A stretch of DNA of 64,000 nt, taken from positions 62,001 through 126,000 of the forward strand of contig NZ_LWSK01000001.1 in assembly GCF_001642955.1 (NCBI RefSeq), written 5' to 3'. The notes beneath the pieces are model-generated. The model made no database searches. It was not told the DNA's origin and worked only from the letters and a program-made list of their open reading frames with translations. Both the position numbers and the translations under genes were made by a program. Source of the DNA: Rubripirellula obstinata (GTDB lineage: Bacteria; Planctomycetota; Planctomycetia; Pirellulales; Pirellulaceae). Below are positions 3,039 through 62,091 of this stretch, piece after piece (position 1 is the stretch's first letter; each line of letters opens with the position of its first letter).

Positions 3039-3111
3039 TACCCCCTGCCCGATTCGAACGAGCGTTTCGGGCTGAGAAGCCCGACGTCCTGGGCCGCTAG
3101 ACGAAGGGGGC
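3039..3111 (-). tRNA. tRNA-Glu (probable CTC), enlarged anticodon loop
   Basis: The 73-nt minus-strand sequence has a complete acceptor stem GCCCCCT/AGGGGGT with discriminator A, the tRNA-Glu-like D arm TTCGTCTAGCGGCCCAGGAC and a T arm GCTCG/CGGGC with TTCGAAT. The anticodon arm TCGGG/CCCGA encloses eight bases, CTTCTCAG, instead of seven, and leaves only three bases for the variable region. If the CTC flanked by T33 and A37 is the anticodon, this is tRNA-Glu with one extra T in the loop. The alternative is a 6-bp stem with a 6-base loop. It could be a working tRNA with an unusual loop or a decayed copy. Confidence 0.75.
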
Positions 3112-3118
3112 GGGGGAA

Positions 3119-3207
3119 GGAATTAGGAATTAGGAATTAGGAATTAGCTTAGTAGGTTTTGGAAAAAGCTAATCGCTAATCGCTAATCGCTAACAGCTAA
3201 TCGCTTA
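3119..3207. repeat. Heptamer arrays at the 3' end of clpP
   Basis: Four copies of a GAATTAG-type heptamer (3119-3147) are followed by about six copies of GCTAATC (3168-3207); the last unit contains the clpP stop codon. The two blocks are partly complementary (ATTAGC with GCTAAT) and could pair in the clpP transcript. A matching array lies after glgX at 4565-4662. Confidence 0.8.
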
Positions 3208-3792
3208 CTTTTCGTCGATCTTGGAGACGACTTTGTCGATCAGGCCGTATTCGGTGGCTTCGGCGGCGCTCATGAAACGGTCTCGGTCGGTGTCTTCTTC
3301 GATCTTTTCGAGCGAGTGGCCGGTGTGTTCGATCATGATCTCGTTCATGCGCTGCTTGATGCGGCGTAGTTCGGCGACGTGGATTTCCACTTCACGTGCG
3401 GTGCCTTGCATGCCGGCAAGCGGTTGGTGAATCATGATCCGAGCGTTGGGCAATGCAAATCGCTTGCCTTTGGCTCCGGCGGTCAACAGAACCGCGCCCA
3501 TCGATGCGGCTTGGCCGATGCAATAGGTCGCTACGTCGCACGAGACAAATTGCATCGTGTCGTAGATCGCCATTCCGGCGGTGATCGATCCGCCGGGGCT
3601 GTTGATGTAAAGGTGAATGTCGGCCTTGGGATCGTCGGATTGCAGGAACAACATTTGCGCGACCAACGCGTTTGAAATGTGGTCGTCAACTTGTTGGCCT
3701 AGAAAAATGATCCGGTCTTTGAGCAAGCGACTGTAGATGTCGTAAGTTCGCTCTTCGCGGCCCGACTTTTCAATGACGTAGGGAATGGGCAT
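3205..3792 (-). CDS. clpP: ATP-dependent Clp protease proteolytic subunit (canonical)
   Basis: A 195-residue serine peptidase that forms the two-ring, 14-subunit ClpP barrel and degrades proteins fed by ClpX, ClpA or ClpC in the cytoplasm. The catalytic triad is intact: Ser97 in GQAASMGA, His122 in MIHQP and Asp171 in DTDRDRF, at the same spacing as in mature E. coli ClpP. The N-terminal processing region is short. It lies 90 bp downstream of a second clpP gene on the same strand and is probably co-transcribed with it. The ATG at 3792 is the natural start, since MPIPYVIE is the usual ClpP beginning. The 3' end runs into a heptamer array. Confidence 0.97.
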
Positions 3793-3882
3793 GGTAATGC
3801 TTTGGTATTTTTGGATTGGTGACTTACAAGGGTGCCGAAAGTCTTGGCGACTTCCGCTACGAGTTGGACCGGGCGTCTTTGC

Positions 3883-4527
3883 TCAGTCTTCTTCGCCTTC
3901 GCTTGGTGGCTTGGTCAGGATGTCGTCAACGAGTCCGTAGGCTTTGGCTTCTTCGGCACCGAGGAAGAAATCGCGATCGGTATCGGCCGCAATTTTCTCA
4001 ACCGTTTGACCGCTATGCTTTGCGATAATTTCGTTGAGCACATCGCGATAGCGGAACATTTCGGCAGCTTGGATTTCGATGTCGCTGACTTGTCCACCGA
4101 CGCCGCCCAAGGGCTGGTGCATCATCACGCGGCTGTTGGGCAGGCAGAATCGTTTGCCGGATTCACCGCCGACCAACAACACGGCCGCGCCGCTGCATGC
4201 TTCGCCGACGCAATAGGTCGCGACGGGGCATGACAGCATTTGCATGGTGTCGTAAATCGCCAGGGTTGCGGTCACGGAACCGCCGGGGGAATTCAAGTAG
4301 AAATGGATATCCTTGCGGCGATTTTCGCTCTGCAAGTACAGCAATTTCATCACGATTTCGTTCGCGTTCCCGGTGTGAATCTCGCCCTGGAGAAACACGA
4401 TCCGGTTCTCCATCAACAAGTCGCCGAGCGTCATTTGGCGTTGGCGTTGGTAGTTTTGATACGAACTGGCGGCCATAGGTTGGTCTTTCCGTCGAAGTGA
4501 ATAATGTACGGCGTTAGTGTTCGGCAT
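3883..4527 (-). CDS. clpP: Clp protease proteolytic subunit, divergent paralogue
   Basis: A 214-residue ClpP paralogue, first gene of the clpP pair. The triad is kept: Ser112 in GEACSGAA, His137 in MMHQP and Asp186 in DTDRDFF. The motif around the serine (ACSGAA instead of AASMGA) and the glycine-rich handle after the histidine (GGVGGQVSD) differ from the canonical copy. In bacteria with two ClpPs the subunits may form mixed barrels with different substrate range; that is inference here. The N-terminus is uncertain: ATG 4527 adds a 17-residue extension before the alternative ATG at 4476 (MAASSYQ), which is preceded by GGAAAG. The acidic tail ends in EGEED. Confidence 0.93.
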   Translation of the reverse strand: MPNTNAVHYSLRRKDQPMAASSYQNYQRQRQMTLGDLLMENRIVFLQGEIHTGNANEIVMKLLYLQSENRRKDIHFYLNSPGGSVTATLAIYDTMQMLSCPVATYCVGEACSGAAVLLVGGESGKRFCLPNSRVMMHQPLGGVGGQVSDIEIQAAEMFRYRDVLNEIIAKHSGQTVEKIAADTDRDFFLGAEEAKAYGLVDDILTKPPSEGEED

Positions 4528-24800: not shown

Positions 24801-25404
24801 CTTGGCTTACTTGGTTCTTAATGGGGGTGAATTGTGCCGCGACCTGCTCGGAATGAACAATTTGACGCGTCGGAAGTTTGCATCGTCCATGTTGTCCAAC
24901 GCTGCGTGCGTCGGGCGTTTCTTGCTGGCTTGGATCAGGCGACTGGTCGGGACTACTCCTATAGAAAGGAGTGGATTCGCCGGCGGATGGAAGCACTTGC
25001 GTCCGTTTTTGCAGTCGATGTTCTGTCTTATGCGGTGATGAGCAATCACCTTCACCAAATTCTGCGCACTCGACCTGATGTGGTCGCAGAATGGAGTGAC
25101 GAAGAGCTTGCGATTCGTTGGTTGCGCGTATTTCCCGGTCGTAGGCTTGAGGAACACTTGGCCGAACCGACCGAGAACGATGTCAAAACGCTGTGTCAGG
25201 ATCAGGATCGTTTGGCTGAGATTCGCAGGCGAATCTCGGATATTTCCTGGTTCATGCGGGCTCTAGCGGAACCGATCGCTCGGATGGCAAATCGCCAGGA
25301 TGAATGCACAGGTCGGTTTTGGAATCGTCCGATGCCATGCGTCAAAACTCTCGATTGGATGAAGCGAAGCACTGCGTTGGACTGTGCTATCGCGGGCTAG
25401 GTTT

Positions 25405-27558
25405 CTACGGGGTTTTTCGGTCATTTCTTGTTGGCGTCCGTAAAGATTCTGTTGGCCCCATGCACCCTTTTCGGCTTTGGCTGACTGATAACTGACGTAA
25501 CCGCGTCAACTCTACGGCGTCCGCCCAAAACACCCACACGCGACCAAACGGGCGTTGGTCTGCAAGAACCCACCCACGGCGCACCCAATCCTTGAGCTTC
25601 TTCGTGGTGACGCCGATCGCTGTTGCCAAATCGATGGTCAGCCATTGATGTTCCGAAAGTATTGGAGTCGTTAGTTGTTGATGACTGGCCGGATCATCGT
25701 TGAGCAACTTACCAATCATCGAGGCGGAGATCGGCTTGTTGTGGCGAGGCGAACGATAGCCCTCTTCTGCAAGTATCGACGCAACTGCTGGCGAACGATT
25801 TCCATCAAGCACAAGCTGAAGCATTCGGTCCATCAGTTCACGGTAGTTGTCTAGCTGCGGATAGACGGTGACAGTTCGCATGATCTCGTGTACGCTTTCG
25901 TAACCGCCTCGCCATTGCAATCGAACATCGACGCGTTGCGTGTTGCCTTGAACTGCGACGTTCACCTGTTTCAATAGCAAGCGAGCGACTTCCTTGCGAT
26001 CAACCACTCCTAAGTGCCGCTGCCATAGCGTCACTACATCGCCAGCACATTGTTCAATGGCTTCTCGCTGCGCGTCGTCGATCTCTGTCGACACCTGAGA
26101 CAGAAGTTCGTTCAACTGTTGCTGAGCATCTTGTTGTGCAACAAGCGCCTGCTCCCAGCTTTCTTCTAAGCTCGCCGCGACTAAGCGATTGGCCGGATCA
26201 ACATGGCGGTAACCTCGCTCGGCGACTTCAACCGCATAGCAAGCTTGTTGCACGCGATCGGTATAGATCCGCTGCATCTGAATCCGACGTGTCTCCTCGT
26301 CCTGGATCACTTGTAAGCTGAGTTCTATTCCCGCTGGCGACAATGCCTCAAGAAGCTTATCGCTGATCAGTGCATCTAAAATTTCACAGCGAATCGAGCT
26401 GTTGCACGGAGTAGCGCCTGCGACGGTGCTGTGGCGAGCGCATCGGTACACCGGAGATGAATTTGAAGGGTAGCTGACTGCCAAACGGCGACCACATTTT
26501 TCGCAGTACACGATTCCACTTAGCAACGCCACTCCTGTGCGTGCTGGCCCCATGCGATCGGGGCGAGAGTCGTTTTCTCGCAGGCGTTGTTGATTGTCGC
26601 AGAACTGCTGCCATGTGATGTAGGCGGGGTGTCGATCGATCAACAGCACTTTCCATTGTTCGGGAAGAAGGTGCTTTTTCGTCGCTTTTGACGGCATTTT
26701 CGTGCCATATCGCTTGGTGCGTCCATAACCGTACGCGCCCGCATAAAGCGGGTGCTTCAGTAATCCATAGACGGTCGTCTTGGCAGCAAGACGCCACTGG
26801 ATATCACCGGAGACTCCGCCGCGTCGCTGACGAAACGGAAGACGGATATTGTGTTCGGCCAAGTACTGAAACAGGGCGTGCGAAGATCCGGTGATTTCGA
26901 ATTGGTCAAAGAACAACTGCATCACTCGGCGAGCGGACTGGTCCGGATCAAGCTGCGGAGAACCTTGCGCATCGAGTACATAGCCAACCGGGACGTCATG
27001 GAACAGTTCGCCACGCTGCGCTTTGCTTAGCCGACCTCGCTCCAGTCGAACCTTCATCGTGTGCAACTCCATCTCGCTGATAATTCCCTTGAGTCCCAAG
27101 ACGAGTCGATCATTTGGGTCGTGCGGATCAAAGACTCCATCTTCATCAGCGATCAATGTATTGAAAATTGCGCAGACTTCGAATAGATCGCTCCAGTCTT
27201 TCGAGTTGCGAGCCAAGCGACTCATCTCCAGTCCTGCGACCAGCCCAACCTTCTGATCGGTGATAAGCTTCAAAAGTCGCCGAAAGCCTTCACGATCGGC
27301 GTTGCCGCTGCCGCTTAGACCAAGGTCGTCATCAATAACAATTACACTATCCTGAGGCCAACCCAATGCAACAACACGATCCTTCATCGCGTACTGCCGC
27401 GCAGTCGATTCTTGGTGCTCCCTGAGTTGCGCCGAAGTGGATTGACGAACGTACACAGCCGCCAAAAAACCCAAGTGCCGATCGGTAACCTTGGGGTGGA
27501 ATAACCCCGTAGGCTTCGCGACGCGAACGGCCTCGCCAGCGATTGCAATTTCATTCAT
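25405..27558 (-). CDS. Large serine recombinase
   Basis: 717 residues. The N-terminal resolvase domain has YVRQS with catalytic Ser40 and the EMSRLARN region (111-118); a recombinase domain follows (about 195-330). A zinc ribbon has CEKCG (Cys352, Cys355) with Cys373 and Cys385. A coiled-coil segment spans about 405-500. The C-terminal part has a second DNA-binding-like region with an HTH flavour (TIDLATAIGVTTKKLKDWVR, about 646-665). Such enzymes integrate DNA by a 2-bp staggered cut with a phosphoserine bond. It starts with ATGA overlapping the small upstream gene. The Shine-Dalgarno is a perfect AGGAGG at 27565-27570, much stronger than at native genes, which fits foreign origin. The stop is 83 bp from the left boundary. 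Confidence 0.93.
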   Translation of the reverse strand: MNEIAIAGEAVRVAKPTGLFHPKVTDRHLGFLAAVYVRQSTSAQLREHQESTARQYAMKDRVVALGWPQDSVIVIDDDLGLSGSGNADREGFRRLLKLITDQKVGLVAGLEMSRLARNSKDWSDLFEVCAIFNTLIADEDGVFDPHDPNDRLVLGLKGIISEMELHTMKVRLERGRLSKAQRGELFHDVPVGYVLDAQGSPQLDPDQSARRVMQLFFDQFEITGSSHALFQYLAEHNIRLPFRQRRGGVSGDIQWRLAAKTTVYGLLKHPLYAGAYGYGRTKRYGTKMPSKATKKHLLPEQWKVLLIDRHPAYITWQQFCDNQQRLRENDSRPDRMGPARTGVALLSGIVYCEKCGRRLAVSYPSNSSPVYRCARHSTVAGATPCNSSIRCEILDALISDKLLEALSPAGIELSLQVIQDEETRRIQMQRIYTDRVQQACYAVEVAERGYRHVDPANRLVAASLEESWEQALVAQQDAQQQLNELLSQVSTEIDDAQREAIEQCAGDVVTLWQRHLGVVDRKEVARLLLKQVNVAVQGNTQRVDVRLQWRGGYESVHEIMRTVTVYPQLDNYRELMDRMLQLVLDGNRSPAVASILAEEGYRSPRHNKPISASMIGKLLNDDPASHQQLTTPILSEHQWLTIDLATAIGVTTKKLKDWVRRGWVLADQRPFGRVWVFWADAVELTRLRQLSVSQSRKGCMGPTESLRTPTRNDRKTP

Positions 27559-27863
27559 CGCTTACCTCCTTGCCGCGAGGTGTTTTGACAATTGCGTTTG
27601 CCGCCGCCTGTGACATGATTCTCAGAATCTGTCGCTTGGTCTTTGGATCGATCGCTTGATCCCAAATGCGATCCAGAGGAACCGTTTTCGCTATCGGTGT
27701 TGACCGTCGGCGCGGGGGGGGACAATGGCGGGGTTTCCGTCAGGACGCATGGGACACCTTCCATGATTTGTTGTTGATACCGCTCCACCCAGAAAACGAG
27801 CGATTGAAGTGCGGAAAGATCAATTATCCCGATTTGCTTACGTCGGCCAATGTCGATTTCCAT
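27555..27863 (-). CDS. Small unknown protein of the serine-recombinase element
   Basis: 102 residues, first gene of the element. The start ATG lies 23 bp inside the right boundary, and the stop overlaps the recombinase start (ATGA). The first 45 residues may fold (IDLSALQSLVFWVERYQQQI, helical). The rest is hydrophilic, rich in Ser, Asp, Thr and Pro and probably unstructured, ending in basic GGGKRNCQN. The position suggests a regulator or directionality factor for the recombinase; no family is recognised, so this is speculation. Confidence 0.6.
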   Translation of the reverse strand: MEIDIGRRKQIGIIDLSALQSLVFWVERYQQQIMEGVPCVLTETPPLSPPAPTVNTDSENGSSGSHLGSSDRSKDQATDSENHVTGGGKRNCQNTSRQGGKR

Positions 27864-28573
27864 CGCATTGTGAAGGTCGGTTTTGGGAAGGGCGTTTTAA
27901 GGCTCAGCGAATCGTGGACGAAGCTGGCTTGTTGGCGTGCAGCATGTACGTGGACCTAAACCCTGTTCGGGCAGCAATGGCTGGCAGTCCTGACGATTCG
28001 ATCCACACGTCAGCGTATGATCGCATCGAAGCGGAGAAAGGAAAGCAGATTCCTTCGGCGGCGTTTGACCTGAAGGCGATTCCGGCGAAAGAAGCTGGTC
28101 GGAAGATTCGCGAGACTTCGGTGGAAGAATTGAAACAAGAACGCAAGGAGGCTCGCAAGAACCCAACCGGTCGAAAGGTTCGTCGCGATGGTTGGCTTGC
28201 GCCCCTGTCGATGACGCACGGCACCTTGGAATCTGACCCCGAGGTTCATCAAGATGGTTTTCGTGGCAGTGACAAGGGTTTTCTGAATATCGACTGGAAG
28301 GACTACAAGCGATTGCTTCGCTGGACGGCTCGCCAGGGGGTTGAAGGAGTGACGTCTAAGGTCCCATCAGCGATGGCCAAAACCCTACAGGAACTTGGGA
28401 TTGATGCATTGATGTGGCGAGACTTGGTTTGGAATTGGCAGAAGTATTTCGGCAAGTCATCATGCGTCGGCCGTCCAGAATCAATGAAGGCGGACGCCGA
28501 GCGAATCGGTCACCATCATCACCGCGGGCAAGCAAGTGTCGCAGAGTGTTTCGCGATCACATGATCTTTTCGT

Positions 28574-28613
28574 CAGCATGATTGGCGGCAGCATGATTGG
28601 CGGCAGCATGATT
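28574..28613. repeat. Short tandem repeat of 15 bp
   Basis: CAGCATGATTGGCGG is present 2.7 times (28574-28588, 28589-28603, 28604-28613) directly after the transposase stop. Downstream, CGCAACCGCT (28660-28669) and AGCGGTTGCG (28689-28698) form a 10-bp hairpin that may end the transcript. Nothing else is seen between the transposase stop and 28849. Confidence 0.7.
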
Positions 28614-28849
28614 CAAAGCTGGGTGAAAGAAAACACCAGCGTATTCTTTCAATCTTCCGCGCAACCGCTTCTTCGCATAAAGTTGACCAGCGGTTGCGAG
28701 AGGTACACAGCAAACTCGATCCGATAAACCCTAGCAGTCCCCAGGAACGACCAAAACGTCACCGCGTAGCAATCTCTCTCTGATCGCTTGTTATGGTAAA
28801 GTAGGGATTGGCATGACAGTCTTCGCACCTTCATTGGTTTGGTCATAAA

Positions 28850-61973: not shown

Positions 61974-62091
61974 ACAGGTTTCCAAGCTCTTGGTCAGTTC
62001 GCCACGATCTACTTTCAACTGAAACCTGGGGGCCAGCTATGGGAGAGCGCGGTGGGGCAGTTCAGGGAATTTGTTTGGTCAAGCTCTGACG

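Follow-up and report, generated by a model that had tools for sequence, protein, structure and literature searches.

How did a transposase gene of Rubripirellula obstinata come to be cut by a small element with a phage-type recombinase, and why at that particular codon? The locus lies in the 64,000-nucleotide stretch analysed here (positions 62,001–126,000 of contig NZ_LWSK01000001.1, assembly GCF_001642955.1), which we call the window and in whose numbering positions are given. The element occupies 25323–27886, with one copy of the attachment core counted, and carries a large serine recombinase (LSR) gene and one small gene, orfA. Comparison with its relatives makes it quite probable that it belongs to a family of LSR elements of the size of an insertion sequence (IS), in which attB is a conserved transposase motif, attP lies within orfA and orfA changes frame at a run of cytosines (the C-run).

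The borders are the firmest part of this account. A sequence-only reading had proposed that the halves of the transposase gene rejoin in frame at a 13-bp direct repeat, restoring GRFWEGRFK, and that both element ends are thereby known to the base; repeat and empty site agree with it on both counts. The repeat, AGGTCGGTTTTGG, was found by repeat search at 25310–25322 (plus strand) and 27874–27886, a spacing of 2,564 bp. The 5′ half of the gene, including the left core copy, runs from 24834 to 25322 and the 3′ half, including the right copy, from 27874 to 28564, both on the plus strand, and once the flanks are joined, 388 codons are open in one frame, which includes ...TGRFWEGRFKAQ.... Among 21 other genomes of the genus, one match was obtained at E 1e-20 (locus L130), an uninterrupted orthologue identical at 292 of 386 residues (76%), gap-free at the junction, where its DNA reads CACAGGCCGGTTTTGGGAAGG (also given as CAGGCCGGTTTTGGGAAGG). 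An uninterrupted homologue with the predicted junction sequence, sought as a check on the sequence-only reading, was thus found; in the own genome three transposase paralogues are likewise uninterrupted across the junction. LSR integration is marked by a short core common to the two junctions and by an empty site to match, and by these sequence comparisons the locus is confirmed as a precise insertion of an LSR element in a transposase gene.

The target gene had been labelled a REP (repetitive extragenic palindrome)-associated transposase. A resemblance is indeed present, and the 3′ half contains YVDLNPVRAA, which we take to be the catalytic tyrosine motif. The L130 orthologue, however, scores only 39.5 bits against NCBIfam NF047646 (cut-off 80) and 14.4 bits against Y1_Tnp (cut-off 23), so that the gene falls outside the REP-associated tyrosine transposases (RAYTs) as curated and is described here as one that resembles REP-associated Y1 transposases, with scores under the curated cut-offs. 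Directly 3′ of it, at 28571–28615, a 15-bp unit (CGTCAGCATGATTGG and variants) is repeated three times head-to-tail.

Within the element, the LSR gene (25405–27558, minus strand) encodes the predicted protein of 717 amino acids, in which an N-terminal resolvase domain (residues 33–184) is followed by Recombinase and zinc-ribbon domains (Pfam Resolvase, Recombinase and Zn_ribbon_recom, all above their cut-offs), the order expected of the LSR class. Upstream of it an open reading frame (ORF) of 102 amino acids (27555–27863, minus strand) shares four bases with the start of the LSR gene. The LSR and the small gene are the only likely genes in the 2,564 bp, and because they occupy the element there is no space within it for the relaxase or transfer genes of an integrative and conjugative element (ICE) or integrative and mobilizable element (IME). 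None of the 16 inverted pairs listed connects the two ends, as terminal inverted repeats would. Attachment at a tRNA gene was ruled out, no tRNA lying near the element.

A pattern scan of a species-genome collection, with the LSR alone as query, gave four relatives. The LSR family is found in 13 of 392 genomes of the phylum (E 1e-60) and in 50 of 397 genomes of the class (E 1e-80), the own genome being counted in both; among the viral contigs searched there was no relative. The fetched loci comprise 87 distinct LSR places, 81 of which retain the N-terminal part and 80 of which entered a tree that places the window within a clade of 52 rows. In its own draft genome the window element has one full-identity copy, accompanied by a further full-length relative, 40% identical, in a DDE_Tnp_1 gene (C244:24472–26523; L002/L024) and by two fragments (C266:24032–24808, L003/L025; C116:4225–5343, L004/L026). 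Relatives occur as several copies per genome, as insertion sequences do: L071 and L072, in one genome, are 100% identical over 2,517 bp, and L073 and L074, also in one genome, 99.9% identical over 2,645 bp, a length in which a few bases may belong to similar target genes. Where copies are paired within a genome, they outline the element free of assumptions, and these pairs bear out the earlier description of an IS-like element with a phage-type integrase. L075 and L076 match over 2,769 bp at 99.2%, and a second copy lies nearby in L075. In L079 and L124 a related ORF (MLTERYPAVAADIDECARG...) stands directly past the LSR stop and is perhaps cargo.

The relatives also answer whether the recombinase occurs at unrelated boundaries: two of the four that the LSR query gave share the boundaries of the window element, in homologous genes. 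These, in other planctomycetes, are L021 (seen at both borders) and L022 (at the one border within its stretch), which split RAYT homologues at the same residues and in the same orientation as the window element. In L077 a RAYT fragment starting GPFFEGRYK lies at the border. L084 stands between two RAYT fragments (15–575 and 3100–4207) on opposite strands, both reading outward, and looks like two occupied sites that recombined, inverting the intervening DNA. Family searches of border ORFs extend the list to IS4-type genes (L072, L082, L087, with DDE_Tnp_1 in L024 and weakly in L092), ISAs1 (L076, L127, with DDE_Tnp_1 in L065, L075, L091 and L128), IS5 (L074), IS630-type DDE_3 (L129), IS3/rve (L083, L088, L093, L094, L122 and weakly L080) and IS66 (TnpB in L081, transposase in L126). 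Altogether an IS gene lies at the border in 26 of the 52 clade rows, including five RAYT loci (L001, L021, L022, L077, L084) and some near-identical copies; in L082, L083, L093, L094 and L122 the target gene was identified on one side only, and most transposase fragments score under the whole-protein cut-offs of their models. A first tally of flanks (281 of 287 ORFs; the best 25 of 30 and the best 25 of 28 families) gave mainly HTH_21 (8), DDE_Tnp_1 (7), rve (6) and IstB (5). As a control, 149 ORFs from 39 matched sites at a distance of 3.4 kb were searched: among the best 25 of 147 families, Y2_Tnp and RVT_1 had two matches each, a tally that would miss single transposase matches ranked lower. 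Of the 165 control ORFs, 16, from L075 and L076, were left out because of the second element there.

Outside the clade, five of the ten flank ORFs submitted match IS families (Y1 in L035, rve in L036, IstB in L107 and L110, IS66 in L123). Four flank ORFs in other clades, upstream of the LSR (for example L112:1628–1891), match DUF5372 (PF17342), which is possibly an accessory gene of LSR clades without the C-run. The ORF of L112 gave DUF5372 and not IstB, and ORFs of L103, L106, L111 and L115 that looked by eye like group II intron reverse transcriptases matched no family and were not counted.

Plasmids carry the same pattern into other phyla. LSR relatives were found on 447 plasmid records (E 1e-40), mostly of rhizobia, and nine of the best 15 records were sampled, leaving out three further Leptolyngbya boryana records with the same match, H8, H12 and H13. 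These nine, from Cyanobacteriota, Actinomycetota and Pseudomonadota, all have a cut IS gene at the border: IS5 (L132 and, weakly at 17.7 bits, L134), IS701 (L133, L139), IS4 (L138), IS66 TnpB (L135), IS21 IstA (L136) and IstB (L137, L140). Both sides of one gene were recognized in L133, L137 (partly through annotation) and L138, and one side in the others. Unrelated elements agree on where a family model is broken. The IS5_3 model of 258 positions is broken at 225, 224 and 224 in a planctomycete (L074), a cyanobacterium (L132) and a Streptomyces (L134), and the IS701 model of 363 at 324 in both L133 and L139 (Streptomyces and Skermanella). For ISAs1 (314 positions) one fragment ends at 276 (L127) and another starts at 275 (L076), and for IS3 (369 positions) the breaks are at 331 (L094) and 330 (L083). 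The IS4, IS5, IS701, ISAs1 and IS630 genes are split at an I/V-E motif, presumably the site of the catalytic glutamate of DDE transposases.

The partner gene proved less simple than the sequence-only reading had it. The 102-residue ORF and its four-base overlap with the LSR gene stand; that it is the whole partner gene probably does not, a frame change being indicated at the C-run. The ORF corresponds to the zero-frame N-part of orfA plus a zero-frame continuation past this run, which in the window is a conserved C8 tract followed by GCGC on the minus strand (27714–27721). A C-run of six to nine C followed by G was found in the small gene of 48 of the 81 loci, namely in 47 of the 52 clade rows and in L025, too short for the tree, and in none of the 28 other tree rows. 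From 123 to 51 nt upstream of the run, substitutions favour the wobble position of the zero frame (324/689, against 231/688 and 193/688 in the other frames; 7/7 groups), and downstream of it that of the +1 frame (697/1589, against 523/1590 and 466/1589; 6/7 groups), although pairs inside a group are not independent. The frame under selection thus differs before and after a slippery run, as in programmed frameshifting. The +1 part, with a common pattern like LWxxLPxxRRxxLxxLLxxLLAR, extends to the LSR start; in the window this C-part, RRRSTPIAKTVPLDRIWDQAIDPKTKRQILRIMSQAAANAIVKTPRGKEVSDE, spans 27551–27712 on the minus strand and stops just beyond the LSR start codon. The N-part is recognizable by its motif in 43 loci: 36 have it in the zero frame, five already in the frame of the C-part and two in the third frame. 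On the frame pattern at the C-run and the substitution phases, the 102-residue ORF was rejected as a complete gene; it is probably less than the whole partner.

A second start codon with a Shine–Dalgarno-like motif lies 17–70 nt before the end of the run in 45 of the 48 loci, 38 of them having it in the third frame. That of the window gives MRPDGNPAIVPP, and a short third-frame leader ORF, MRPDGNPAIVPPRADGQHR, runs into the C-run (27691–27750, minus strand). Run length varies among close relatives (seven and six in L075 and L076, eight and seven in L090 and L028, nine in L095 against seven in its sisters), and in L076 and L028 the variant fuses the two parts of orfA, which it does not in L095.

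Where, then, does orfA begin? In four relatives with a known border (L021, L071, L075, L091) the zero-frame ORF runs from border to C-run without an ATG, GTG or TTG. At the opposite end of the element, just within the junction, stands an ATG or GTG, usually behind a GGAGG-like sequence. When the two ends of the window element are joined, its end ATG (25336–25338, minus strand), the proposed start codon of orfA, comes into frame with the small ORF, reading MASDDSKTDLHNAMEIDIGRRKQIGIIDL. We examined this circle join across the family in a core-free test restricted to loci whose two flanks come from a single gene, so that the frame of the join is given; the peptides were chosen by eye. The start codon was the one nearest the junction with a Shine–Dalgarno-like motif (an ATG without the motif in L001 and L129), other start codons in the tested stretches often being out of frame. 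The join is in frame in 14 of 17 loci, or 12 of 15 distinct elements, where one third is expected by chance; the cyanobacterial L138, with a 15-bp repeat, brings the total to 13 of 16 distinct elements. The joined frame could also be read in L020 (9-bp repeat, the 9-mer occurring twice) and L089 (14-bp repeat). A search for the longest shared k-mer at the junction made many wrong joins in GC-rich loci and was abandoned for the core-free test.

A single mechanism would account for these observations. The LSR would recombine attP of an excised circle with attB, a coding motif highly conserved among transposase genes, and such recombination cuts the gene precisely; in the window attB would be the DNA for GRFWEGRFK of the Y1/RAYT-like gene, and in sister clades it would often be the motif of the DDE catalytic glutamate. 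As attP would sit in the 5′ coding part of orfA, integration would part its start codon, left at one end of the element, from the remainder at the other, and circularization would rejoin them. In the integrated state orfA would therefore be severed from its outer start and its long form be off, while the short leader form could act. After excision the long orfA would be restored and would switch frame at the C-run, by transcriptional slippage or ribosomal frameshifting, ahead of the conserved C-part that ends on the LSR start codon. Long orfA would be made from the circle alone and might raise LSR output through its overlap with the LSR gene or otherwise favour re-integration.

Several observations weigh against this interpretation. 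Half of the clade rows (26/52) have no IS gene by the family search, some of them being truncated elements or contig ends; no target was found in this way for L020, L027, L070, L078, L089, L090 and others. The cut genes also include an HNH gene (L125), an ArdC-type gene (L086) and, by eye, a tetratricopeptide repeat (TPR)-like gene (L071), and in L082 and L083 the genes on the two sides differ, the other side being an IS3 OrfA-like frame. The circle join is out of frame in L076, whose C-run is one base shorter than that of the near-identical L075, and in the copy L128, whose LSR contains a stop; L088 has no recognizable start at the element end. In the window itself, the 102-residue ORF has its own ATG inside the element, and none of the Shine–Dalgarno motifs tested precedes the end ATG. 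The 42 nt from 51 to 9 nt upstream of the run have no frame preference (197/438, 200/439, 205/440), and a weak sigma70-like site, TTGGCC-16-GATAAT (27823–27850, minus strand), was dropped as evidence, since shuffled sequences gave a mean of 1.4 such sites for the one observed.

How far do these points favour other explanations? The recurrence of transposase genes could be a matter of survival, an LSR of low specificity inserting at random and its insertions persisting in genes that are dispensable and abundant. The identical copies L071 and L072 in a TPR-like and an IS4 gene, and the cut HNH and ArdC-type genes, fit this idea; random insertion followed by selection would hardly make unrelated elements converge on one position of a family model, or on one set of RAYT codons in one orientation, and the control sites yielded few transposase matches among the best 25 of 147 families. 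We regard it as unlikely. A slimmer chance is given to a role in host defence, for which the elements would have been domesticated or selected because splitting the catalytic motif silences transposons: insertion does part conserved catalytic regions, but duplicated copies, and copies with stops in the LSR, resemble a selfish element.

The small gene invites two further alternatives. The C-run might mediate phase variation, its DNA being hypermutable and turning orfA on or off, with no programmed recoding. This is possible, though we doubt it: run length does vary among close relatives, and the N-part is directly in frame with the C-part in five of 43 loci and in the third frame in two, yet in the other 36 it is out of frame with a C-part that is nevertheless conserved, and most copies would have to be off. 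Least probable, by a shade, of all the alternatives is an outward role for the start codon at the element's 3′ end, which would begin the interrupted gene downstream and match orfA by accident. The end ATG of L082 and L083 does continue directly into an IS3 OrfA-like frame (Pfam HTH_Tnp_1 in L082), and in these two the element may supply the start of the neighbouring gene. In the window, however, the target gene is antisense to the end ATG; in-frame joins (13 of 16 distinct elements) are above the one third expected, and four elements have no start of their own between border and C-run. A start codon returned to orfA in the circle thus remains our preferred interpretation.

Parts of this arrangement have counterparts in known systems. 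In the transposons Tn4451 and Tn4453 (TnpX), which carry cargo, a promoter is reportedly assembled in the circle, whereas in the present element a second gene would gain its start codon and coding frame. Elements of the IS607 family encode a small serine recombinase with an N-terminal DNA-binding domain and often tnpB. They resemble the present element in their size, in using a serine recombinase and in lacking terminal inverted repeats, but the window element, with a 717-residue LSR, a resolvase domain at residues 33–184, a zinc ribbon, no second large ORF and recurrent targets, falls outside the family, for which an inverted domain order and minimal target specificity are described in the portions consulted (PMC4058570, PMC6188088). 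Passages of an LSR atlas describe site-specific LSRs with a conserved coding sequence as attB, for instance in Mg-chelatase, prolyl isomerase and competence genes, as well as a multi-targeting clade (PMC10083194). The choice of attB is thus shared with phage and ICE large serine integrases, while transposase targets, IS-sized elements and a split helper gene are not mentioned in these main-text passages (PMC10083194). In ICEclc and ICEKp1, according to parts of PMC13023037, integrase promoters are state-dependent and the joining of circle ends alters integrase gene expression; these elements are conjugative and the switch is transcriptional only, unlike that proposed here. Helper-embedded phage-inducible chromosomal islands (PICIs) in prophage late genes offer another parallel, an integrase clade repeatedly entering the genes of another mobile element, although, in the portions of PMC10111431 consulted, these are phage satellites with a helper phage. 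In the main text of a survey of conserved prokaryotic frame changes, as far as it was available, the words recombinase and Rhodopirellula are absent (PMC3711429). The literature search returned no description of such elements; most subscription papers and ISfinder lay outside its coverage, and an earlier description is possible.

The sequence-only reading is supported, and the recurrent target, the partner gene split by attP and the frame change at the C-run go beyond it. A more ambitious proposal, to which we give somewhat less than an even chance, is that cargo-free, IS-sized LSR elements across phyla are hyperparasites of insertion sequences, each clade having evolved an attB equal to a catalytic or other invariant coding motif of one transposase family and silencing that transposase when it inserts. 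In one large clade attP would lie in an accessory gene that exists only in the circle, and two starts, one at the joint and one internal, would lead into the same C-part by slipping in opposite directions at a single C-run; the two proteins, made according to the state of the element, would set the direction of recombination. The elements described here would add a class of small autonomous LSR-moved elements whose targets can be read from the interrupted genes. LSRs addressing transposase-family motifs would supply a natural set with readable attB, attP and cores over several phyla, useful for the study of target choice. If a gene is put together from its halves only after excision, in the circle, and carries a frame change, it would be a compact sensor of the integration state, and precise insertion at catalytic codons suggests an unnoticed brake on transposon activity.

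Elsewhere in the window, ARAGORN reports a tRNA-like gene at 3039–3111 with an undetermined two-base anticodon.

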